Positions 18,723 through 57,786 of a DNA stretch of 64,000 nucleotides are shown here, piece after piece. The DNA is from Candidatus Manganitrophaceae bacterium. GTDB lineage: Bacteria > Nitrospirota > Nitrospiria > SBBL01 > Manganitrophaceae. Numbering within the stretch: the first letter of the stretch is position 1; each line of letters begins with the position of its first letter. The stretch lies in NCBI GenBank assembly GCA_016200325.1, contig JACQEZ010000008.1, positions 124,001-188,000 on the forward strand. The letters run 5' to 3'. Made by a program: the position numbers and the translations under genes. The notes below the pieces were generated by a model that did no database searches, was not told the origin of the DNA, and was given only the letters and a program-made list of their open reading frames with translations.

Positions 18723-19127
18723 TTAATTGAATGGTCTATCGAGCCGATCAGACTTTCTTTTCTTCTTAATAGCGAGCGTCACCTCGGCGAGGACTCTTGG
18801 AATTTCGAACGGCTTCATTAAATAACCACAGGCTCCCAGTCGAACCAACTCAATTGCACTGGTCACCGTCCCATATCCGGTGATGATCAGAACTTGTATT
18901 TTTGGATGATATTTCTTAATGGCTGTTAAGACCGCCACCCCCTCCATCCCGGGCATTCTCAAATCAAGCGTTACCAGATCTACCGTCTGTTGACGGATGA
19001 ATTCTAACGCCTGCAAACCGTCGCTGACTTCTTCCACCTGACAAAATGGCGCCAGCACCATTTTTAGAGACTCTCTCGGTCCACTTTCATCGTCGACGAT
19101 TAAGACTTTACTTCTGAAATTCATCAT
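18723..19127 (-). CDS. Single-domain response regulator (receiver only)
   Basis: A 134-residue CheY-like receiver without output domain. Acidic pair D12-D13 (LIVDDE), phosphoacceptor in VTLDLRMPGMEG, Thr switch in IITGYGTV, and Lys in GYLMKPFEIP. The GYGTV...A sequence and TSAIELVRLGA resemble the receivers of NtrC-type regulators, so it may be a detached NtrC-like receiver. It ends in a basic tail. It has no adjacent kinase on its own strand; the hybrid kinases about 2.4 kb away on the other strand are candidate partners. Confidence 0.88.
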   Translation of the reverse strand: MMNFRSKVLIVDDESGPRESLKMVLAPFCQVEEVSDGLQALEFIRQQTVDLVTLDLRMPGMEGVAVLTAIKKYHPKIQVLIITGYGTVTSAIELVRLGACGYLMKPFEIPRVLAEVTLAIKKKRKSDRLDRPFN

Positions 19128-19835: not shown

Positions 19836-21506
19836 ATGAGCCAGCATGACCGTCGATCTTATTTTCGGGTGAGAGAGACACTCAGTCTCCGCCTGCTCCT
19901 GAGGGATCCTTATACTAAAAAGCAAAAAATATATCATAGCAGCGCCATCGACATCGGCCTAAAAGGCCTTTCCATCTCAACGGAGAAAGCGCTTCCGCGG
20001 ATTGATAAAGGGATCGTTGAAGTCGCGCTCCCCCTGCCTCTGCAGCGGCTAAAAGCGCGGGTGCGGGTAAAGTGGAGGAATGAAGAGAAATACTTATATG
20101 GAATCGAATTCGTTCAGGCGCCCGACAATCAGGTGGGCGACTGGGAGACGTTCATCAAGACCTCTCGGGCTTCCGTTCCCGACCGGCGGGAGAAAGACTC
20201 CGGCCGGAGAACCACCCCCCTCCCGTCGGACGATGATTTATCGAACAAAGAAAAGAGAAAGATCATCCGGCGCATTTCCGATTTATTAAGCACCGATTTT
20301 GAGCCGGAAGACCGCGCCTCTCTATCGAGGGCCGATTTGGTGCCGAAGCAGAAAGAGATCGACTACACCCTGGCCGCGGCGAAGACGCGAAGAGAATGGC
20401 TGAGCGCGAAGACCGGGGCCACGCTCAATCACATCGCCGTCTTCAGCGAAGATCCAAAAAACATGCAGGGGAACATTGAAAATTTTATCGGGGTGACGCA
20501 GGTCCCCATCGGGGTGGCCGGACCGTTAAAAGTAAACGGACAATATGCGAAAGGAGATTTCTACGTTCCTCTCGCAACGACGGAAGGGGCGCTGATCTAC
20601 ACCTACACATTGGGGATGCAGGTGCTCCATCTCTCGGGGGGGGTTACCACCCGGATCATCCGGGATGAAACACACATTTCTCCGCTCTTTACTTTTGAGA
20701 GCTTAAGCCAAACCACTCAATTTTGCTACTGGCTTGAGGCGAACTTCTCCCAGATTAAAAAACATGCGGAGGCGACCACCCGGCACGGAAAGCTCTTGCG
20801 GGTTGAACCGATCCCCTATGATCGAAATGTCATCGTCAAGTTCTGCTATTCCACCGGCGATGCAATGGGTCTCAACATGATCAATTTTGCAACCGAGGCG
20901 GCCTGTCACTTCATCGTGCCGATCGTGAAACCGAAGCGGTTTTATTTGCGCTCCAATTTTTCAGCCATCAAAAAGGTCTCCGCGCACAATTATGCCGCCG
21001 GCATGGGGAAAACCGTGATCTGCGAATCGGTGATTCCAAGCAAAGTGATAAAAAGAATTTTTGACATCACGCCTGTAGAGGTTGCGGCCTATTTTCAGGC
21101 GGCCATGCTATCGGGTATTCATTCGGGAATGATCGGAATGAACGGGCATGTGGCAAACGGACTCACCGCCCTTTTTATTGCCTGCGGACAGGATGTCGCG
21201 AGCATTGTCGACTCTCACATCGGGATCAGCAATTTTGAGATAACAGAGGAAGAAGACCTTTATATCAGTCTTAAATTGCCAAACCTGGTGGTCGGAACGG
21301 CGGGAGGAGGTGTGGCGCTGGCAAGCCAAAGAGAATGCCTCGAACTAATCGGTTGCTATGGAACGGGTAAAGCAGAAAAGTTTTCAGAAATTGCAGCAGC
21401 CACCTGCCTTGCGGGAGAAATCGCTATCTGCGCGAACGTCGCTAACGGGAAGTTTGTCAATGCCCATAAGATGTACGGCCGAAAACAACCCGAGACACCT
21501 AAATGA
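19836..21506 (+). CDS. PilZ domain fused to class I HMG-CoA reductase-like domain
   Basis: A 556-residue fusion. Residues 1 to about 110 are a PilZ (cyclic di-GMP-binding) domain: RxxxR as R7-SYF-R11, then D39-IG-LKG, where the usual DxSxxG has Gly for Ser. About 130-180 is a charged linker. About 190-550 matches HMG-CoA reductase, which makes mevalonate with NADPH: ENFIGVTQVPIGVAGPL, ATTEGAL (catalytic-type E250), TGDAMGLNM (cofactor-binding motif), a lysine pair K379-K380, IACGQD (D453), VGTAGGG and C-terminal H544. The Asp that normally precedes the Lys pair is Ile378, and the GRGK that follows is GMGK, so the HMG-binding loop is altered. The next gene overlaps by ATGA. It may be a mevalonate enzyme under c-di-GMP control or a repurposed fold. 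Confidence 0.88.
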   Translation: MSQHDRRSYFRVRETLSLRLLLRDPYTKKQKIYHSSAIDIGLKGLSISTEKALPRIDKGIVEVALPLPLQRLKARVRVKWRNEEKYLYGIEFVQAPDNQVGDWETFIKTSRASVPDRREKDSGRRTTPLPSDDDLSNKEKRKIIRRISDLLSTDFEPEDRASLSRADLVPKQKEIDYTLAAAKTRREWLSAKTGATLNHIAVFSEDPKNMQGNIENFIGVTQVPIGVAGPLKVNGQYAKGDFYVPLATTEGALIYTYTLGMQVLHLSGGVTTRIIRDETHISPLFTFESLSQTTQFCYWLEANFSQIKKHAEATTRHGKLLRVEPIPYDRNVIVKFCYSTGDAMGLNMINFATEAACHFIVPIVKPKRFYLRSNFSAIKKVSAHNYAAGMGKTVICESVIPSKVIKRIFDITPVEVAAYFQAAMLSGIHSGMIGMNGHVANGLTALFIACGQDVASIVDSHIGISNFEITEEEDLYISLKLPNLVVGTAGGGVALASQRECLELIGCYGTGKAEKFSEIAAATCLAGEIAICANVANGKFVNAHKMYGRKQPETPK

Positions 21507-24500
21507 CCTCTTTTAACATCTCCTGTACAGGAACCGCGATTGTCAGCCTCCTTATCGGTCTGTTCGTTTTTATCAAAAATTGGCAAGGCTCGATCAATCG
21601 AAAGTGGGCGCTCTTTTGTCTGAGTGTCGCCATATGGAGTTATGGTCTTGGAATGATGACCTCCGCGACCGATATCGAGTCTGCCGAATTTTGGATCCGT
21701 ATTCATTACCTCGGCGCAATCATGATCGGCCCTCTTTTTATGGACTTTGTTCTCAGGCTCTTGAATCAGAGTAGGCGGACTGCTTTGATTGTTTCCTACT
21801 TCTCCGCCGGTCTTTTAGAAGTAATGAACTTAAGCCATCTGCTCGCTTACCCGGCACCGCTCCCACCCTTTAATTACTATACGAAACCTGAAAAGCCTTA
21901 CTTCCTTTTCGTGGCATTTTTCGCCACGGTCGTTACCTATTCGTTGAAACTTCTCTTTGAAGCCTATAAAAGTGCGACCGGTCAAACTCGGAATCAACTT
22001 AAACTGCTTTTTATTGGTCTGGCCGTCGGATTCTGCGGCGGCTCAACCGCCTTTTTTCCCGTCTTTAATCTTCCTCTTTTTCCCTATGGTATTTATTTTG
22101 TAGCAGTATATACCATAATTGTTACTTATACTATTATTCAATACCGCTTCTTCGACATCCAGACAGTACTTCACAAGACGCTGACCTGGCTGACCATTTC
22201 TTCTATCGTTCTTGTACCTTTGATTGGTGGTCTTTACTTTACAAAAAATTTCTTTGTATCGCTATCTCCAATTCGATTTGCAACATACATTTCGGCGGTG
22301 GTTGCTCTTCTCATCCCCTATACTAAATTCATTCAACCCCACATTGATCATCTTTTTCAACGTCGCCGTTATGACATGCAGAAAATATTGCAGGGGATGG
22401 TAAAAGAGCTTGTGGCATTAAAAAGTGTAGCTGGTCTTATCGGAAAAATTGCAGGAACCATTGAGGAGGCGCTCTATGTTTCGAGAGTAACCTTGATTTT
22501 ATGGAGCGATAAGGAGCAGCGATTCAATGTCGTGAAAGGAGAAGCCCCGTCCGAGGAGGCCCCGATTACGGGAGATTATCTTTTTCTAACATGGATGAGA
22601 GAAAAAGATAGAGTTATTGAATGGGAAGAGCTCTCTTATAATCCCGAATATGAGTTTATTCGTCCGTTGGCTCACGCTTACTTTAAAAAATTTAATGCAA
22701 AAGTGGCACTGCCCCTTATCCATGATGGAAAACTTATTGGCTTAGTTAATCTGGGCGAGAAGGAAAATCTCAAGCCTTTTTCAAGTATGGATCTCGATTT
22801 CCTCTCAAACCTGCGCGCGGAAGCCTCGATCGCGCTGAGCAATTCGCTCCTTTACGATGATGTCGCCAAGATGTCGGAAGAGTTACGCCGATGGGCCAGC
22901 GAACTGGAGCGCAAAGTAGAGGACCGGACCTCCGAGTTGGCCGAAAGCAAGCGTCAGCTCGAGGAATCGTACCAGAAGCTTCAAGAGCTCGATCAGCTGA
23001 AATCGAAATTCTTCGCCAACATCAGCCATGAACTACGGACCCCGATCACGCTCATCCTCGCCCCCACGGAGATGATGCTCAATCGGGACCTCGGGGAGTT
23101 AAACCCGGACCAGGAAAAGTATCTCTCCATCATGCAGACCAACTCCCTTCGCCTCCTAAAATTGATCAACAATTTATTGGATTTGGCAAAGGTCGACGCC
23201 GGAAAGATGGAGCTTTATTACAACCGGGCCGATTTCTCAAAGTTCGTGAGCGGGGTGGTCGCCTCCGTCAGTCCGATGGCGGAGAAGAAATCGTTGGCGC
23301 TGCGGTTCGAAAGCGACCCTTCCATTCCGGAGATTTTCTTCGATGCCGACAAAATCGAGAAGGTTCTGCTGAACTTGATCTTCAACGCTTTAAAATTTAC
23401 GGAAAAAGGGGAGATCAAGGTCGCCTGCATAAGAGAGGACAATCAGGTGGCCGTGCGCATCACCGATACCGGGATCGGAATCCCAAAAGGGCATATGTCC
23501 AAGCTCTTTAGCCGTTTTTCCCAGGCCGACAGCTCCGCGAGCCGAAAATTTGAAGGAACCGGGATCGGCCTCGCCCTTGCCAAAGAGTTGGTCGAGCTCC
23601 ATCAGGGAAAGATCTGGGCAGAGAGCGAAGAGGGGAGAGGGAGCACCTTTCATTTCGTCCTTCCAATCTATGTCCGGCTGGAAGAGGTGCCCGGGGCGCT
23701 CGATCGGCGGAGCGAGGCGCTCCCCGTCTCCGAAAAAAGGCGCGAGGAAGATTGGACTCGGTCCTTGCAAACGAAGGCCGATTATGCAACCGATGAACTC
23801 GTCCGGGAAACGGCCTCCCTCCCGGAAGAGAGCCCACACAGCGGCGTTGAATATCGCATTCTCCTGGTCGATGACAACCCCGACATGTTGAGTTATATCG
23901 CCTCCCAGCTCAAGGCCGATTACCGACTCCTCTTTTCAAAAGACGGAAAAGAGGGGGTGGAACGGGCGAAATTGGAACTTCCCGACCTGATCATTTCGGA
24001 TGTGATGATGCCGTATAAAGACGGCTATCAACTCTGCCACGAAATAAAAGAAGAACCGCGCACCTGCCATATTCCCATTATCCTCCTGACAGCCAAAACG
24101 GATCTCTCAACGAAGATCGAGGGGCTGGAGCATGGCGCAGACGACTACCTCACCAAACCGTTTAACGCTCAGGAACTACGAGCCCGCGTCCGCTCTCTCA
24201 TCAATCTCAGGAAGCTGGAGCGGGAGATTCAGCAGCGGAGCAATCAGCTGGAAGAGACCCTCAATACGTTAAAAGAGACGCAGGGGCAGCTGGTTCAATC
24301 CGAAAAGATGGCCGCGCTCGGCCTCCTCATCGCCGGGGTGGCGCATGAGATCAACAATCCGGTCAGCTTTGCAAAGGGAAGTCTTGCGATTGTCCGGCGC
24401 GTCCTGGACGAGATGAAAAATGCAGAACGTTTAAGCCCGGCGGAGCTCGCCGAGCTTTCGGAAGATTTAGAGACCTCCATTCAGGTGATTAAAAACGGCC

Positions 24501-25060
24501 TGGACCGGACGGAAAACATCATCAGAAATCTCAAGAGTTTCGTTCGAAAAGATGAAGAGATCCTCAAAGCCTATCATCTCGAAGAGGGGATTGAGTCGAC
24601 CCTTCAACTTTTCCGGCATGAGACGACCCACCGAATCACCCTCCTCCCCGATTACGGGAGAACCCCTTCGATCGAGGCGATTCCGGGACAGATCAACCAA
24701 GCGATCATGAACATTCTTCAAAACGCGGTTCAATCGATTTCGGATCGCGGAGAGATCGTGATCAAAACCGAGCAGATCGGAAACCAGGTCCGAATTTCTA
24801 TTCGGGATACCGGCTGCGGCATTCCCGAGAAAGATCTCCCCCGAATTTTTGATCCCTTCTTCACCACCAAGGAAGTCGGCAAAGGAACCGGCTTGGGAAT
24901 GACCATCACTTATAAAATCATCGAAAATCATCACGGTCGCATTGAGGTGACAAGTACCGTCGGACGTGGAACGGAAGTTGTTCTCCATCTCCCCATCTCT
25001 CAACCGGGTGGTTCCAGTCTGATCGGAAGGGGACTCTATGCCGGAAGCACTCCCATATAA
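21503..25060 (+). CDS. Hybrid sensor kinase: 7TM-GAF-HK-REC-HK
   Basis: An 1185-residue signalling protein. Seven to eight membrane helices (about 10-275) form a HisK-7TM-type sensor. A GAF-like domain (about 295-450) and coiled coil (450-500) lead to the first kinase, with phospho-His H509 (NISHELRTP), an N box (LLNLIFNALKFT), DTGIGIP and GTGIGLAL. A receiver (about 815-930) follows, with LVDDNPD, phosphoacceptor in LIISDVMMP and DDYLTKPF. A coiled coil then joins a second, NtrB-like kinase (VAHEINNPVS; DTGCGIP; GTGLGMTI). Two complete kinase cores in one chain are unusual. It overlaps the PilZ-HMGR stop by 4 bp and the next gene by 23 bp, so all three are co-translated. Confidence 0.93.
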   Translation: MTSFNISCTGTAIVSLLIGLFVFIKNWQGSINRKWALFCLSVAIWSYGLGMMTSATDIESAEFWIRIHYLGAIMIGPLFMDFVLRLLNQSRRTALIVSYFSAGLLEVMNLSHLLAYPAPLPPFNYYTKPEKPYFLFVAFFATVVTYSLKLLFEAYKSATGQTRNQLKLLFIGLAVGFCGGSTAFFPVFNLPLFPYGIYFVAVYTIIVTYTIIQYRFFDIQTVLHKTLTWLTISSIVLVPLIGGLYFTKNFFVSLSPIRFATYISAVVALLIPYTKFIQPHIDHLFQRRRYDMQKILQGMVKELVALKSVAGLIGKIAGTIEEALYVSRVTLILWSDKEQRFNVVKGEAPSEEAPITGDYLFLTWMREKDRVIEWEELSYNPEYEFIRPLAHAYFKKFNAKVALPLIHDGKLIGLVNLGEKENLKPFSSMDLDFLSNLRAEASIALSNSLLYDDVAKMSEELRRWASELERKVEDRTSELAESKRQLEESYQKLQELDQLKSKFFANISHELRTPITLILAPTEMMLNRDLGELNPDQEKYLSIMQTNSLRLLKLINNLLDLAKVDAGKMELYYNRADFSKFVSGVVASVSPMAEKKSLALRFESDPSIPEIFFDADKIEKVLLNLIFNALKFTEKGEIKVACIREDNQVAVRITDTGIGIPKGHMSKLFSRFSQADSSASRKFEGTGIGLALAKELVELHQGKIWAESEEGRGSTFHFVLPIYVRLEEVPGALDRRSEALPVSEKRREEDWTRSLQTKADYATDELVRETASLPEESPHSGVEYRILLVDDNPDMLSYIASQLKADYRLLFSKDGKEGVERAKLELPDLIISDVMMPYKDGYQLCHEIKEEPRTCHIPIILLTAKTDLSTKIEGLEHGADDYLTKPFNAQELRARVRSLINLRKLEREIQQRSNQLEETLNTLKETQGQLVQSEKMAALGLLIAGVAHEINNPVSFAKGSLAIVRRVLDEMKNAERLSPAELAELSEDLETSIQVIKNGLDRTENIIRNLKSFVRKDEEILKAYHLEEGIESTLQLFRHETTHRITLLPDYGRTPSIEAIPGQINQAIMNILQNAVQSISDRGEIVIKTEQIGNQVRISIRDTGCGIPEKDLPRIFDPFFTTKEVGKGTGLGMTITYKIIENHHGRIEVTSTVGRGTEVVLHLPISQPGGSSLIGRGLYAGSTPI

Positions 25061-26267
25061 GGAGTATCCCATTCTCTTTGTCGACGACGAAGAGATGGCT
25101 CTCATTACCTTCAAGAATCTCTTTAAAAAAGAATTCAAAATCTATACGGCAAGGAATGGGGAGGAGGCGCTCGACCTGGTCGATTCACATCCGGACCTGG
25201 CGATGATCGTCTCGGACCAGCGTATGCCGCGGATGAGCGGGGTCGATCTGCTCCATGCCTGCTCGAAAAAAAGGCCCGATTTAATCCGGATGCTGATGAC
25301 CGCCTATACCGAAATTGATCTGGTGATCGAAGCAATCAACCAGGGAAATATCTACCGGTACATTACAAAACCGTACCACGAAGAAGAGTTGAAGCAGACG
25401 CTCAAGCAGGGGATTGAACGCTATTTCCTGGGGAAAGAACGCGACCGCCTTCATGCAGAGAAGATCGAAACCTTAAAACGGATGGCCCAGGCAAATCGAC
25501 TCACCGCCATCGGCGTCCTGGCGGCCGGCATGGCACATGAGATCAACAATCCGCTCGTTGCAATCAACACCTTTCTCCAGATGATCCCGAGGAAGTTCGA
25601 TGAAGAAGTGAAGGATGAGGAGTTCTGGGACAAGTTTTATAAGGTGGCGCTGGACGAGACCCATCGGATTCAGATGCTCGTCAGCGATCTCCTTCACTAT
25701 TCGAAAACCCCGGAAGACAGTCAGATGAAATGGACGCAGGTCAATATCAATGACCTTCTCCATGAGACAATGACCTTTCTGGAAAATGAGGCGAGAAAAA
25801 AGGGGCTGACCATTCGGAATGAGTTCGATCACAACCTTCCGCCCTGCTTGGTCGACCGGGAAAAGATGCGTCAGGTCTTTTTGAATCTCTTCTTAAATGC
25901 AATTCAAGCGACATCTGAAGGTCACATTTTGGTAAAAACCTCTTTCGATTCGGAATCGCAACATCCTTTTTTTCACGTCGTCCTTCAAGACACCGGTATC
26001 GGCATTCCGGAAGAAAACTTGCAGCGGCTCTTTGACCCGTTTTTTACCACGAAAAAAAATGAAGGAACGGGACTGGGGTTGATGATGTGCAACCACATCA
26101 TCGACGAGCATCGCGGCAGCATTGAGGTCAAATCGGAGGTCGGAAAGGGGACGACCATGACGCTCCATCTGCCGGTCAACCCATCGCACTTCAATCGCAG
26201 AAGGTCGGAACGACGGGGAAGCGCACCTCCTTCGGGGGCCAAGCCCCACGCTTCTTCCGGCAGGTAG
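25038..26267 (+). CDS. REC-histidine kinase (soluble)
   Basis: A 409-residue cytoplasmic protein. The N-terminal receiver (about 10-125) has FVDDEE, phosphoacceptor D60 (IVSDQRMPRMSG) and K111 (YITKPYHEEEL). A coiled coil leads to an NtrB/HupT-like HisKA with H167 (GMAHEINNP) and a HATPase domain (FLNLFLNAIQAT, DTGIGIP, GTGLGLMM). The receiver resembles RpfG/HupR receivers. It overlaps the preceding hybrid kinase by 23 bp. Together they could form a phosphorelay in which the large kinase feeds this receiver. Ends just before a strong bidirectional terminator. Confidence 0.93.
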   Translation: MPEALPYKEYPILFVDDEEMALITFKNLFKKEFKIYTARNGEEALDLVDSHPDLAMIVSDQRMPRMSGVDLLHACSKKRPDLIRMLMTAYTEIDLVIEAINQGNIYRYITKPYHEEELKQTLKQGIERYFLGKERDRLHAEKIETLKRMAQANRLTAIGVLAAGMAHEINNPLVAINTFLQMIPRKFDEEVKDEEFWDKFYKVALDETHRIQMLVSDLLHYSKTPEDSQMKWTQVNINDLLHETMTFLENEARKKGLTIRNEFDHNLPPCLVDREKMRQVFLNLFLNAIQATSEGHILVKTSFDSESQHPFFHVVLQDTGIGIPEENLQRLFDPFFTTKKNEGTGLGLMMCNHIIDEHRGSIEVKSEVGKGTTMTLHLPVNPSHFNRRRSERRGSAPPSGAKPHASSGR

Positions 26268-31960: not shown

Positions 31961-33427
31961 TTAAATAAGTTTATATTGTTCAGAATCAAGATCCACCTTT
32001 TTATCAAAACGGGCGTCGGTCATAAAACCGACCACCACAAAAACTTGGATCTCTTCTGATTTTCCCCGCACCCGGGTCGGGGGGAGAGGGATCGCTTCGA
32101 GAATTCCTTCCAGACGCTTATACGTATCGGACGAGATCAAGATCTGTGTATGATACCGTTTGTTCAACTTCTCAATCCTCGCCGCCATGTTCACGCTGTT
32201 TCCGATGACGGTATAGGCGAGCCGCTTTAAGGAACCCACATTGCCGGCAACGACTTCACCGGTATTGATCCCGATGCCGATCTCAATTTCGGGATACCCT
32301 TCGCGAACCCATTTTTGCTTGAGCAGCTGGAACCGCTCATTCATCTCCAACGCCGCACGGACGGCCCGCTCCTCGTCGTTGTCGTGACGAATCGGGGTTC
32401 CGAAGACCGCCATCGCCGCATCGCCGATAAATTTATCGAGCGTTCCCTCATACTTTTGAACAATCTCAACGACGGCGGCGAAATAATCATTTAAGATATG
32501 AACGACCTCCGGCGGATCGAGGCGCTCCGCCAGCGAGGTGAATCCTCGAATGTCGGTGAAAAGAATCGTCGCCTCGGTCCGGGTTCCGCCGAGCTGCAGG
32601 CTCCTTGGGTTTTGTAAAAAGGTCTCGAGGATATTCTCGGAGATATATTGGGAGAACGCCCGCTTGATCAGCTCCTTCTCCCGAAGGTTTCGCGACATCT
32701 CGTTGAAGGTCGACACCAGAAGACCGATCTCATCATTCGACTTCATCTCAATCTGCGGATAGGTCCCCTCGGTAATGGACTTCACCCCGTCGACCAGTCG
32801 GCGGATCGGCTTGACAATATAGTAGGCGAGCAGCCAGGCGCCGAGCAGGCCGACGCAAAGGGCGAGAAAGATAAAGATGCCGATCTTTTTTTGGGACTGG
32901 GCGACGGTCTCATAGATCGGCCGCTTGGAAAAACCGACATGGACCGATCCGATCCGCTTCTGCCCGGTAAAAAGGATCGGCGCAATCAGATCGAGCCGCT
33001 CCTTCCCATCCGCCTCGTGCGACGTCAATAGTTCGACCCCCCCCTTAAACTCCTTCTGTCCGCTGTAGTTATCGGGGGGGAAATAAGGCTTCCCTTGCTG
33101 CGTCAGATCGGTATGGGCGAGGATGTTCTGTTTGACGTCAACGAGGAAAATATAGAGGATCGCCGGATCTTTCGACGCCTCGCTGATCATCGTCTCAAGG
33201 GCCAGGCGGTCCCGAGTCAAAATCGCTTCCTGGCTATATTGAGCGATCCCTTGGGTAATGGAGATCGCCCGAAGCATCGCCTCCTCGGTCAATGATTCGG
33301 TCATCAGCCCGGACGTAATAAAATAGGAGAGAGAAAGGGTTAACCCCAGGAGGGTACTGATCAGGATCGAAAACTTAATCTTGAGGTTAAATTTCCTAAT
33401 TTTGAGATTAAACTTTCGAAGGGACAT
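31961..33427 (-). CDS. Class III adenylate/guanylate cyclase with extracytoplasmic sensor and HAMP
   Basis: A 488-residue membrane protein. Transmembrane helix 1 (about 19-40), a PAS/Cache-like periplasmic sensor (41-180; YIFLVDVKQNILAHTD), helix 2 (182-203), HAMP (204-258) and a class III cyclase domain (about 283-475). Metal-binding aspartates D292 (FTDIRGFT) and D336 (GDAAMA) are present, as is the purine-selecting K332. The usual Asp of the GDxVN motif is Asn (IGNSVNMAAR), so nucleotide preference is unsure. It would make cAMP or cGMP in response to an external signal. Confidence 0.92.
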   Translation of the reverse strand: MSLRKFNLKIRKFNLKIKFSILISTLLGLTLSLSYFITSGLMTESLTEEAMLRAISITQGIAQYSQEAILTRDRLALETMISEASKDPAILYIFLVDVKQNILAHTDLTQQGKPYFPPDNYSGQKEFKGGVELLTSHEADGKERLDLIAPILFTGQKRIGSVHVGFSKRPIYETVAQSQKKIGIFIFLALCVGLLGAWLLAYYIVKPIRRLVDGVKSITEGTYPQIEMKSNDEIGLLVSTFNEMSRNLREKELIKRAFSQYISENILETFLQNPRSLQLGGTRTEATILFTDIRGFTSLAERLDPPEVVHILNDYFAAVVEIVQKYEGTLDKFIGDAAMAVFGTPIRHDNDEERAVRAALEMNERFQLLKQKWVREGYPEIEIGIGINTGEVVAGNVGSLKRLAYTVIGNSVNMAARIEKLNKRYHTQILISSDTYKRLEGILEAIPLPPTRVRGKSEEIQVFVVVGFMTDARFDKKVDLDSEQYKLI

Positions 33428-53854: not shown

Positions 53855-55072
53855 TCAGCTGCTCACCTCCGCCTGTGAGATCCGGTGCGGGAGCAAAACG
53901 ATAAAGGTCGTCCCCTTTCCGAAGACACTCTCGACGGCAATCTCTCCCTTCAACAAGGAGACGAGCTCCTTCACGATCGCCAGCCCCAGCCCCACCCCGC
54001 CGAACTCCCGCGTCGTCGTTCGATCGACCTGATGAAACGCGTCGAAGATTCTTGAAAATTGATTCGGAGGAATGCCGATGCCGGTGTCTTGGACGACGAT
54101 TTCAATCCCTTCATTCCGCAGCCGCCTCCGGATGGAGATCGTCACCCCACCGCTCTCCGTAAACTTCAGGGCGTTGGAGAGAAGATTCGTGATGATCTGC
54201 CGGATTTTGTAAGGGTCCGATTCTATCATCGGAAGGCCCTCTTCAATTTCCCACGCAACCGAGAGCGACTTCTTCTCGAACAGCGGCCGTATCCCGATAT
54301 GAACATCTTCCAGCAGCTCCGGAAGATCGACGACTTCAATGTTGACCGGCATTTTTCGAGATTCGATTTTGGTGAGATCGAGCAGGTCGTCGACCAGCTT
54401 CAACTGATCTCTCGCATTTTTGAAAACCCCTTCCAGCGGCTCCTTCTGCGTGTCGGCCACCGGACCGTACACCCCGTCAAGCAACAGCTGGGTGTAGCCG
54501 ATAATGGCATTGAGCGGGGTCCGCAGCTCATGCGAGACGGCGGAGAGAAAATACGACTTCGTTTGATTCGCCTCCTCCGCCTCGATCGTTTTTTGTTTCA
54601 GCTGCTGATTGGCCCCGAGGAGTTCGGCGGTTCGCGCTTCCACCCGGCTTTCCAATTGGGAATGCGCCTCCCACAGCGCGCGCTGGGCGGCCTCGTATTC
54701 CGTCCGCAACCGCTCCTTCTCCAGCGTCTCCTTCACCGACAAAGAGAGCTGGAAGAGATATTTCTTCAGGACATAATCGCTGAGCCCCGCCTTCATCCCC
54801 TTCACGGCGATCTCTTCATTCCCGGTGTCGGTCACCATGATGACGGGGAGGTGAGGATGACGCTCCTTGAATTGGGAGAGGACCCAGAGCCCGTCGGTCC
54901 AGTTGAGCCGATAGTCGGTGAAAACCAGGTCGAAGCCGCCCCGGGCGATCGCATCGTCAAAATCTTTTTTTCGAAAGGCTTCGGTATAAATCGATGCGGG
55001 ATACTCTTTCTTCAATTCCTGAATAATCAGCTCGCGATCATCCGGATTGTCGTCGACGATCAGAAACTTCAA
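53855..55072 (-). CDS. REC-histidine kinase (soluble hybrid)
   Basis: A 405-residue protein: receiver (about 1-125; LIVDDNPDD, phosphoacceptor in LVFTDYRLNWTDG, Lys in YVLKKYLF), coiled coil (130-175), HisKA with YFLSAVSHELRTPLNAIIGY (phospho-His), and HATPase (NLLSNALKFTES, DTGIGIP, GVGLGLAI). The missing Pro after the receiver's Lys and the YRLNW loop are typical of receivers that sense kinase partners. It overlaps the following kinase gene by 4 bp (its start is within that gene's stop), so they are co-expressed. Confidence 0.92.
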   Translation of the reverse strand: MKFLIVDDNPDDRELIIQELKKEYPASIYTEAFRKKDFDDAIARGGFDLVFTDYRLNWTDGLWVLSQFKERHPHLPVIMVTDTGNEEIAVKGMKAGLSDYVLKKYLFQLSLSVKETLEKERLRTEYEAAQRALWEAHSQLESRVEARTAELLGANQQLKQKTIEAEEANQTKSYFLSAVSHELRTPLNAIIGYTQLLLDGVYGPVADTQKEPLEGVFKNARDQLKLVDDLLDLTKIESRKMPVNIEVVDLPELLEDVHIGIRPLFEKKSLSVAWEIEEGLPMIESDPYKIRQIITNLLSNALKFTESGGVTISIRRRLRNEGIEIVVQDTGIGIPPNQFSRIFDAFHQVDRTTTREFGGVGLGLAIVKELVSLLKGEIAVESVFGKGTTFIVLLPHRISQAEVSS

Positions 55073-56142
55073 CGCGCCTCCCGCCGCTCCTGCGGCTCGG
55101 CCACTTCAAGCTCAATCCAAAACCGGCTTCCGATCCCCTCGGACGAATCGGCCCCCACCCGACCGCCCATGATTTCAATCACCTTTTGAACCGTCGACAG
55201 GCCCAGACCAAATCCGGGATATTCCTCGATGCTATGCAGACGGACGAAAGGAGAAAAAATCCGACCCAGATTTTCGGATGAAATCCCGATGCCATTGTCC
55301 TGAATTTCGATCCGGCAAATTCCGACGCGCACGGAGGCGGAGAGGGTCACCCGGGGCCGGGTTCCGGGGGCGACATATTTAACGGCATTCGAGAGGAGGT
55401 TGGTCAACGCCGCTTTCAGCAGGGTCGGGTCGGCCTGGACGGCGGGAAGATCTCCCTCGACGCGGACCTCCCCCTTCGCCGCTTCGACCTCCTCCTCCAC
55501 GTTCCTCAAACAGCTTTCCACCAAAGAGGCGAGGCGGACGCTGCGGAGGGCGATTTTCTTCTGTCCCAGCCGGGAAAATGCCAGGAGTGAATCGATTAAC
55601 TCCCATGCCTGCTCGGCAACGGAGTAAATGCGCTCGAGCTGATGCTGTCCGCGCGCATTGAGCTTCTCCGGCTGTTCATTGATTAATAATTTTGCAAAGC
55701 TCGAGATTACACGCACCGGCGCCCGCAGGTCGTGCGTCAGCGCTTGAGCGTAGGTCTCCAGCTCATCGTTGCGAACCTTCAGCTCGGAGGAGAACTGTCG
55801 CGAACGGAGCAATACATCGACCCGCACCTGCAGTTCCACCTTGTCCACCGGATTGATAATCAACTCGTCTATACTTTCCCAGAGGTGCTGTTTGAAGAGG
55901 CCGACATCGTGTCTCGGAACGATCAGGAGGAACGGAAGAAATCGGGGACGATCGGCCTCTCTCCTCGATTGGATTTCTTTGACCCAGCGATGGAGGGCCG
56001 GGCCGTCGACGATGCCGAGGTCAAAGGGTTGGCCGAGCGCCGCTTCGGAATCAGCGACAACCACCGGGTGGCGCGGCTCCAGCCATTCCGCCAACAGCCG
56101 GCGATTTTCCTTATGGTCGATCAGAAGCAAGATACGGTTCAT
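55069..56142 (-). CDS. Histidine kinase with degenerate receiver
   Basis: A 357-residue kinase. Residues 1-118 look like a receiver that has lost its acidic pocket (LLIDHKENRRLL; VDGPAL instead of the phosphoacceptor motif), then HisKA with LTHDLRAPVRVISSFAKL (phospho-His) and HATPase (LTNLLSNAVKYV, DNGIGIS, GFGLGLSTV). The kinase core resembles bacteriophytochrome/Cph1-type kinases. It overlaps the REC-kinase gene by 4 bp and follows the KaiC-like gene by 27 bp. Probably part of a KaiC-linked signalling unit. Confidence 0.9.
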   Translation of the reverse strand: MNRILLLIDHKENRRLLAEWLEPRHPVVVADSEAALGQPFDLGIVDGPALHRWVKEIQSRREADRPRFLPFLLIVPRHDVGLFKQHLWESIDELIINPVDKVELQVRVDVLLRSRQFSSELKVRNDELETYAQALTHDLRAPVRVISSFAKLLINEQPEKLNARGQHQLERIYSVAEQAWELIDSLLAFSRLGQKKIALRSVRLASLVESCLRNVEEEVEAAKGEVRVEGDLPAVQADPTLLKAALTNLLSNAVKYVAPGTRPRVTLSASVRVGICRIEIQDNGIGISSENLGRIFSPFVRLHSIEEYPGFGLGLSTVQKVIEIMGGRVGADSSEGIGSRFWIELEVAEPQERREAR

Positions 56143-56169
56143 ATCACTACGTTTAGGGTCCGACGCGGT

Positions 56170-57624
56170 TCACTGGGTTTTAGGCGGGGAGACCCATTCG
56201 GGGATCCCTCTGAGGATGCCCCGCAGCTCGGTCAACGGCCGGCCGACCTTCACCCCGTCGCCGGTAATTTCAATCTCCCGAAGGGTCTTCTCGAAATCGG
56301 TCAGCCGCTTCTTCAACACGCCGATCGTCTTCCGCAGCTCCCCGTGCAGCTCCAGGTAGCGGAGGAAAACCAAATTATCGGCCAGGTAGCTGATGCCGAC
56401 CTCGGTCGCTTTAAAGTCCCCGGTAATCTCTTCGGTTTCATTGATCAGAATGACCGTCACCCCCATGTTCTTCAGATACCGGCAAAGAGAATGGAGATGC
56501 CGGATGAGGTCTCCGCCCCGGACCGAAAGCTGATAGCCGGTCACCCCGTCGATCATGACGATCCGGGTATTTTGCGCTTCGACCTCCGCGCGAACCATCG
56601 AGGCGAATTCATCCGGGGCAAACTGAAGCGGCTCGACCTGAACGACCGAAAGGGTTCCCCGCTGGATCATCTCTTGGATCGGCACCTTGATCAACGCGGA
56701 GCGATGGAGCAGGGTCTCCATCCCTTCCTCGAATAGATAGATCACGGAGCGCTCACCCCGGGCCGCCGCCGCCTTCATGAACTGAACGCCGAGGGTCGTT
56801 TTGCCGACCCCGCTCGGGCCGGTGAAAACGCTGATCGTCCCTCGCTCCAGGCCGCCATGAAGAAGGGTGTCGAGCTGGGGCACGCCCGAGGAGATCGATT
56901 CGGCGACAAATTCTTTCTGGTGAGATTCGGGAATCAGGCGCGGCGAGATGGCCATTCCATGATCGGTCAGCCGCATCGTGTGATCGCCTCCCAAGAAATC
57001 CGATCCGCGAAACTTGGTAATGCGGACGATCCGCTGTGAATCGGAGAGTACAAGGTGGATGGCGCCATCGCACATGAATTCCAGATCGTCATCCGGCGCA
57101 GACGCCGTCCCTTCGGAGGTGAAGAGAACCGTCCCTTTTCGGGAGGTCAGAAACTGAAGAAAGGAGAGGACCTGCTTTCGGAACTGAAAGGGATCGGGGG
57201 AGAGGTAGCGGAATTGGGTCATCGAGTCGATCAAAATCCGCTGCGGATTGAGTTCCTCCATCTTCTCAATAATCTTCCGGGTCGTCGGCTCTCGCTCGAC
57301 GTCGGCCGCGGAGAAGATGTCATAGGTTTTTACTTCAGAGAAAAACGCCATCGACGGGCTCAAATCGAGAAAGGAAATCCCGGTCAGATCGAGCCCCAGC
57401 GTCTCCGCATTTTTACGGATCTGCGCCTCCGCTTCCCCCAGGGTGATCAGCAACGCTTTTTCCCCATTGACGGCGCCGGCGCCGAGGAAATGGAGGCCGA
57501 GGATTGTTTTGCCGGTGCCCGGCTGACCGCTCACCAGGTAGGTTCGGGCCGGGGTCAGCCCGCCAAAGAGGATCTCATCCAGGCCGGCGATGCCGGTCGA
57601 CAAACGGCGGGAGGGCTCTCTCAT
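56170..57624 (-). CDS. KaiC-like ATPase with two RecA domains
   Basis: A 484-residue protein with two KaiC-type P-loop domains: Walker A GQPGTGKT at about 33-40 and GPSGVGKT at about 269-276, with Walker B LIDSM and VMIDGVTG. The second domain has the paired catalytic glutamates (LFEEG), the first only a single Glu (TLGEAE). The signature IDSM...QFRYL is common to KaiC relatives outside cyanobacteria. The ATG at 57624 was chosen over 57630 because GGAG is six bases before it. Such proteins serve as signalling ATPases; the two histidine kinases behind it are probable partners. Confidence 0.9.
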   Translation of the reverse strand: MREPSRRLSTGIAGLDEILFGGLTPARTYLVSGQPGTGKTILGLHFLGAGAVNGEKALLITLGEAEAQIRKNAETLGLDLTGISFLDLSPSMAFFSEVKTYDIFSAADVEREPTTRKIIEKMEELNPQRILIDSMTQFRYLSPDPFQFRKQVLSFLQFLTSRKGTVLFTSEGTASAPDDDLEFMCDGAIHLVLSDSQRIVRITKFRGSDFLGGDHTMRLTDHGMAISPRLIPESHQKEFVAESISSGVPQLDTLLHGGLERGTISVFTGPSGVGKTTLGVQFMKAAAARGERSVIYLFEEGMETLLHRSALIKVPIQEMIQRGTLSVVQVEPLQFAPDEFASMVRAEVEAQNTRIVMIDGVTGYQLSVRGGDLIRHLHSLCRYLKNMGVTVILINETEEITGDFKATEVGISYLADNLVFLRYLELHGELRKTIGVLKKRLTDFEKTLREIEITGDGVKVGRPLTELRGILRGIPEWVSPPKTQ

Positions 57625-57786
57625 TAACATCTCCAGGTTAGAAGGATCGACGGGTCTAGTCCCTGTGGGTCTATTCTACTACAAATAGATGACCTTCTAA
57701 AACCACGGATCACCACTGCAAGAAAATTGGGAGACAATCGGGAGACAATTTCCGGATACAACGGCCCTCCTCTTCCCGGAGGAAGA

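Follow-up and report, generated by a model that had tools for sequence, protein, structure and literature searches.

Synthase-kinase pairs such as CqsA/CqsS, LqsA/LqsS and RpfF/RpfC are already known. The agr system is a pherotype locus in which the synthase and the receptor N-terminus are exchanged in place. The N-terminus of ComP is variable among ComQXPA pherotypes (PMC4008528). In Cqs/Lqs alpha-hydroxyketone quorum sensing (CqsA/CqsS, LqsA/LqsS/LqsR; PMC3376566) the gene of an acyl-CoA-using synthase adjoins that of a polytopic sensor kinase. The DSF/Rpf system (RpfF-RpfC-RpfG), with a fatty-acyl signal synthase, a hybrid kinase and a REC-HD-GYP c-di-GMP phosphodiesterase, is present in Leptospirillum (PMC8357829). 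AHL quorum sensing is described for Nitrospirales, probably the same class as the bacterium studied here; the paper discusses LuxI/LuxR, its quorum-sensing section covers AHL only, and PilZ and histidine kinases are not mentioned in the survey text (PMC12342949). The Manganitrophaceae genome paper makes no mention of genes of the kind described below.

We analyzed a 64,000-nt stretch of Candidatus Manganitrophaceae DNA (contig JACQEZ010000008.1, positions 124,001 to 188,000; hereafter the window, whose own numbering is used). It carries a three-gene operon in which an enzyme related to HMG-CoA reductase (HMGR) is followed by two kinases.

The PilZ-HMGR and kinase operon

The operon and its domains are as follows.

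19836-21506, + strand: PilZ-HMGR fusion gene, 556 aa, proposed signal synthase (ORF, translation, Pfam)
19848-20132, + strand: PilZ domain, residues 5-99; RxxxR present, second motif DIGLKG in place of (D/N)xSxxG
20379-21482, + strand: class I HMGR domain, residues 182-549 (Pfam, residue alignment)
21503-25060, + strand: hybrid kinase gene, 7TM-GAF-HisKA-HATPase-REC-HisKA-HATPase, 1185 aa (ORF, translation, Pfam)
21533-22159, + strand: 7TM sensor domain and proposed cognate receptor; related loci exchange it jointly with the synthase (Pfam, alignment, AlphaFold)
22373-22837, + strand: GAF domain, residues 291-445 (Pfam)
23000-23668, + strand: first kinase core, HisKA 500-567 and HATPase 614-722 (Pfam, alignment)
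23858-24193, + strand: internal receiver, residues 786-897, phospho-acceptor Asp present (Pfam, alignment)
24275-25006, + strand: second kinase core, about residues 925-1168 (Pfam, alignment)
25038-26267, + strand: REC-HisKA-HATPase gene, 409 aa, third kinase core, overlapping the hybrid kinase gene by 23 bp (Pfam)

All three ORFs are uninterrupted and give clean translations. An earlier note on this DNA had described overlapping PilZ-HMGR, HK-REC-HK and REC-HK genes; the ORFs and Pfam matches confirmed this, and reading of the junctions gave overlaps of 4 bp (ATGA) and 23 bp. The gene starts are credible because related genomes have the same overlaps (4 bp in genome G005; 23 bp between the two kinase genes in G005 and G002). 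The overlaps suggest that the three genes are translated together. The phospho-acceptor His (3/3) and receiver Asp (2/2) residues are present in the operon kinases. No transcriptional output is encoded within the operon, and Pfam found no REC-HD-GYP regulator in it.

The 7TM and GAF domains of the hybrid kinase, both central to the present reading, were overlooked by the earlier note. The N-terminal domain matches HisKA_7TM (PF16927) with 61.2 bits. Its AlphaFold model has seven long helices at a confident pLDDT of 84.7, and the fold match is GPCR-like (Z 17.0, 3.8 Å, 218 residues aligned), a score only moderately above the helical-bundle level and thus not proof of homology.

The first gene product scores 30.4 bits for PilZ (above cut-off) and 366.9 bits for HMG-CoA_red. 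The RxxxR motif of PilZ is intact, and DIGLKG departs from (D/N)xSxxG at the Ser. The catalytic quartet of HMGR (E250, K379, D453, H544) is intact. Residues S684, D690, K691 and K692 of human HMGR have roles in HMG binding (PMC12902076); the S684 position is R372 in the window protein and the D690 position, in the HMG-binding loop, is I378. Ile is found at the D690 position in all class members, and Asp is retained there by a mevalonate-operon HMGR (G263) and by the compared Alteromonas and Vibrio enzymes. In a set of 12 HMGRs linked to kinases, every one has Arg or Gln at the S684 position; the D690 position is Ile/Val in eight, Glu in two and Asp in two, which weakens the idea that every kinase-linked HMGR has lost the HMG-binding Asp. 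The AlphaFold prediction for PilZ-HMGR (five sequences) had a pLDDT of 43.8, too low for use, and was set aside. An annotated HMGR on a Sinorhizobium meliloti plasmid (L122 2995-4239) is an unusual homolog that lacks both loop lysines (GG); its operon neighbors encode acyl-CoA carboxylase subunits and an MmgE/PrpD protein.

Compared with Cqs/Lqs, the locus shares the adjacency of synthase and kinase genes, and two related loci (G003, G028) even have an enzyme from the CqsA/LqsA superfamily, a PLP oxoamine synthase. It differs in that the window enzyme is an HMGR and no alpha-oxoamine synthase, the synthases carry PilZ, the enzyme family is exchangeable, and the receptor is of the HisKA_7TM-GAF type, not the six-helix CqsS type. 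The likeness to DSF/Rpf lies in the hybrid kinase, the acyl-type synthase and the REC-HD-GYP proteins of related loci. Unlike DSF/Rpf, the synthase itself bears PilZ or REC; Pfam found no crotonase-type RpfF/enoyl-CoA hydratase among the three operon proteins, and no Hpt domain was found. As in comQXPA and agr, the synthase and the N-terminal membrane domain of the receptor are hypervariable and the kinase half is conserved, but the cassette has no peptide precursor and what is exchanged are unrelated small-molecule enzyme families.

Exchange of the enzyme in related loci

The earlier note had proposed that its reading be judged by whether HMGR is kept beside the kinases in relatives. The answer was mixed. 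Of five genomes from the same genus, three keep the PilZ-HMGR and kinase triad (G005, G002 and G004, the last with frameshifts that look like sequencing errors), and HMGR was not found in G001, a genome 72% complete. In G003 the same slot, with the same flanks (SpeE-MFS protein, kinases, HtrA), holds a PilZ-alpha-oxoamine synthase (AONS) in place of HMGR. Paralogous kinase loci of the genus carry PilZ-KASIII, PilZ-methyltransferase-like, PilZ-acyl-CoA dehydrogenase, PilZ-aldehyde dehydrogenase or PilZ-TENA-like proteins. Among open frames longer than 400 aa, every PilZ match of the genus sits in such a kinase locus, except for a PilZ-glycosyltransferase in G003. Upstream of the window operon lies a single-domain receiver (18723-19127, - strand); its homologs (53%) adjoin paralogous cassettes in L027, L028 and L029, which makes a role as a common phosphate carrier possible. 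A class III nucleotide cyclase gene with sCache_3_2 and HAMP domains (31961-33427, - strand) also keeps its syntenic place close to the operon across the genus.

We took the sensor half of the kinase as query for a search of the class and read the gene neighborhoods. Kinases of the 7TM-GAF type, often with two 7TM modules, are found beside PilZ-KASIII (G021, G020, G067), PilZ-AONS (G028), PilZ-FabF together with ACP-PilZ-thioesterase (G036), fusions of PilZ, a LuxD-like enzyme and a methyltransferase (G039, G066 and G107; G110 by similarity), PilZ-HMGR (G136) and acyl-ACP-reductase/PigE-like enzymes whose N-terminal PilZ is weak or undetected (G112, G094, G111). In G130 the PilZ-LuxD-methyltransferase and the 7TM-GAF kinase form one ORF of 1641 aa. 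In three kinase loci of family f6 (L097, L111, L112) the genes that follow encode an NtrC-type sigma-54 regulator and a REC-HD-GYP protein. The G023 locus has an NtrC-type regulator without REC-HD-GYP, and its hybrid kinase is preceded by an O-methyltransferase without PilZ. Some kinases have no synthase beside them: in G006 the kinase follows a beta-propeller gene, and in G000 (L098) a 7TM kinase of roughly 880 aa has a glucanotransferase as neighbor. PilZ-KASIII is rare: of 395 genomes sampled from the phylum, 3 have it at a strict threshold.

The KASIII Cys-His-Asn residues are conserved in five members. The PLP lysine is kept by the G003 AONS and replaced in that of G028 (L093 7245-8870; TLSGVL versus SFGKAF), which is likely an inactive or altered enzyme; conserved PLP chemistry in all AONS members therefore does not hold.

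HMGR itself is uncommon in the class. PF00368 matches occur in 6 of 269 genomes, five of them PilZ-fused with a kinase, and the window HMGR is the only one of its genome. The sixth, in G263, has neither PilZ nor kinase and lies in a mevalonate operon (L107 5683-10851) with HMG-CoA synthase, two GHMP kinases and a decarboxylase; IspG is also encoded in that genome.

Relatives of the HMGR at L002 were found in 20 of 285 Omnitrophota genomes. One is fused to PilZ, four (L131-L134) have an N-terminal receiver and would thus be two-component-controlled HMGRs, and HMGR also occurs on its own. Ten loci examined (L002, L127-L129, L132-L134, L138, L141, L143), including three of the four REC-HMGRs, have a 7TM kinase gene immediately downstream of the HMGR gene. 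Within the stretches examined no kinase was seen beside the HMGR in L135-L137, L139 and L140, and the L144 HMGR has mevalonate-kinase-like neighbors.

Recurrence in two phyla and fusion into one ORF led us to reject chance adjacency of enzyme and kinase. The coupling of an enzyme-like protein to kinases, as the earlier note saw it, is thereby strongly supported, with further support from the REC-HMGR fusions and from the way the 7TM follows the enzyme. Its idea of a metabolite-sensing system came close to the evidence, which favors a kinase that senses something made by the enzyme, but HMGR is dispensable, one of at least seven interchangeable enzymes. The phosphorelay over three kinase cores that it suggested may exist. 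As an account of the triad it was partly right and too narrow, since the enzyme slot is variable.

Covariation of the 7TM sensor with the enzyme

The 7TM domain tracks the enzyme and not the kinase. In alignments of the window kinase with those of G002, G003 and G004 (60-residue steps), the 7TM domains are about 17-40% identical and the kinase half (position 361 on) mostly 65-90%. Against G005, which has the closest HMGR (78%), the 7TM is 76% identical. Mosaic kinases are seen as well: those of G004 (KASIII) and G002 (aldehyde dehydrogenase) share 97% identity in the core and 98% in GAF versus 27% in the 7TM. The KASIII-linked kinases of G000 and G021 are 60% identical in the 7TM and 53% in the core. 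All KASIII-linked 7TMs form one clade (support 0.99) that spans four families and both one-7TM and two-7TM kinases. In the two-7TM kinases the first module, beside the enzyme gene, tracks the enzyme; the second does not.

After kinase identity was regressed out, same-enzyme 7TM pairs exceeded different-enzyme pairs by 18.9 points, and none of 20,000 label shuffles reached the observed value (23 or 20 non-redundant loci); these shuffles overstate certainty, because the loci are non-independent and adjacent DNA can travel as a unit. Over 12 HMGR loci the HMGR and 7TM identities are correlated (Mantel r 0.52, 11/20,000). The 3' end of the synthase gene adjoins the part of the kinase gene that encodes the 7TM, its 5' end, and linkage alone would therefore aid joint movement. 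Functional pairing is nevertheless favored, because the breakpoint falls past the sensor but within the kinase gene, and because the pattern recurs across architectures and phyla. As an exception, G002 and G004 carry HMGR, but their 7TM groups apart from other HMGR-type 7TMs. The kinase beside the PilZ-methyltransferase of G005 has no alignable 7TM. An orphan hybrid kinase with a KASIII-type 7TM occurs in G002 (L028 3558-7478), a genome in which PilZ-KASIII was not found; it may be an eavesdropping receptor or a relic.

A proposed synthase-receptor cassette

We read the operon, with moderate confidence, as a synthase-receptor cassette made up of a PilZ-gated signal synthase and its cognate receptor kinase. 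PilZ-HMGR would be an active class I HMGR-type thioester reductase whose product is a small alcohol, probably derived from an acyl thioester, and the PilZ domain would set production according to c-di-GMP or a related intracellular cue. The GPCR-like 7TM domain would bind the product, presumably exported, or a derivative of it, and so change the state of the kinase. Phosphate may then pass from the internal receiver to the second kinase core, to REC-HK and on to regulators encoded elsewhere. Class relatives have two regulators beside the cassette: a sigma-54 activator of the NtrC type, and an RpfG-like REC-HD-GYP protein that would lower c-di-GMP and could feed back on PilZ. The cassettes diversify in blocks: the synthase gene is replaced jointly with the 5' end of the kinase gene, which encodes the 7TM, and the rest of the kinase is retained. 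Such block replacement resembles the agr and comQXP pherotypes, and cell-cell communication is for this reason the most likely role.

The cassette reading is drawn from the different enzyme in the same slot and flanks of G003, the class-wide PilZ-enzyme fusions and the single polypeptide of G130. It draws as well on the tracking of synthase by 7TM, the mosaic kinases, the HMGR-7TM adjacency in Omnitrophota, the intact catalytic quartet, the absence of HMG-CoA synthase described below and the REC-HD-GYP and NtrC-type genes beside three f6 kinases. Counting against it are the missing Ser of the window PilZ motif, the deviating 7TM of G002/G004, the unalignable one of G005 and the G028 AONS, which makes it probable that one or more of the cassette enzymes lack activity. 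In addition, acyl thioesters need not be the substrates of the TENA-like and methyltransferase members.

Private membrane-lipid homeostasis is unlikely, yet it is the rival that we take most seriously. Here the enzyme would act on the cell's own lipids or fatty acids, and the 7TM would detect the resulting molecules within the membrane to control that pathway, with no cell-cell signal. Many of the enzymes use acyl-CoA or ACP substrates, a 7TM bundle within the bilayer could sense lipids, and the REC-HMGR fusions resemble controlled enzyme output. Homeostasis does not explain why, within one genus, unrelated enzymes replace the enzyme and its sensor in place while the kinase is conserved, nor the orphan kinase of G002. 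It is improbable that the enzyme is instead the output, with the kinase sensing an unrelated cue and acting on the enzyme through REC or c-di-GMP/PilZ. The Omnitrophota REC-HMGRs, the usual role of PilZ as an effector domain and the REC-HD-GYP regulators adjacent in three relatives would fit such a scheme, but it is the sensor domain, and not the receiver or kinase, that follows the enzyme type, which an unrelated cue would not cause. That an ordinary mevalonate-pathway HMGR stands beside a kinase operon by happenstance is hardly credible despite its conserved catalytic residues and high class I family score: the PilZ-HMGR genomes tested yielded no HMG-CoA synthase and do have the MEP enzyme IspG, which argues against mevalonate biosynthesis, diphosphomevalonate decarboxylase was not found in G000, the S684 position is altered in all kinase-linked HMGRs (even if two keep the Asp at D690), and other enzymes replace HMGR in relatives. 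This explanation is already contradicted.

To return to the cassette, the sequence comparisons suggest an undescribed family of signaling systems in two bacterial phyla that both produce a small molecule and detect it. Synthases fused to PilZ or REC, exchange over at least seven enzyme families with matching 7TM, and HMGR as a signal synthase were not found described in the literature, in which subscription papers were incompletely covered. We also propose, tentatively, a large class of bacterial cell-cell signaling in which unrelated PilZ- or REC-regulated acyl-thioester enzymes (HMGR, ketosynthases, oxoamine synthases, acyl reductases, LuxD-like acyltransferases) and GPCR-like 7TM kinases are exchanged as cassettes, HMGR being a signal synthase with altered substrate specificity. 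If true, several chemically different candidate autoinducers would be gained at once in Nitrospiria, which probably include nitrite- and manganese-oxidizers, and in Omnitrophota; what is known of signaling in these groups is limited to AHL and DSF systems in the literature surveyed. Signal synthesis would be tied directly to an intracellular regulator through the synthase-fused domain, and HMG-CoA reductase, a heavily studied drug target, would acquire a signaling role. The enzyme-7TM covariation may offer a route to matching synthases with receptors by sequence alone.

Elsewhere in the window (53855-57630, - strand), a gene for a KaiC-like double ATPase is followed by closely packed genes for a HisKA-HATPase kinase and a REC-HisKA-HATPase protein, an apparent KaiC/two-component operon.
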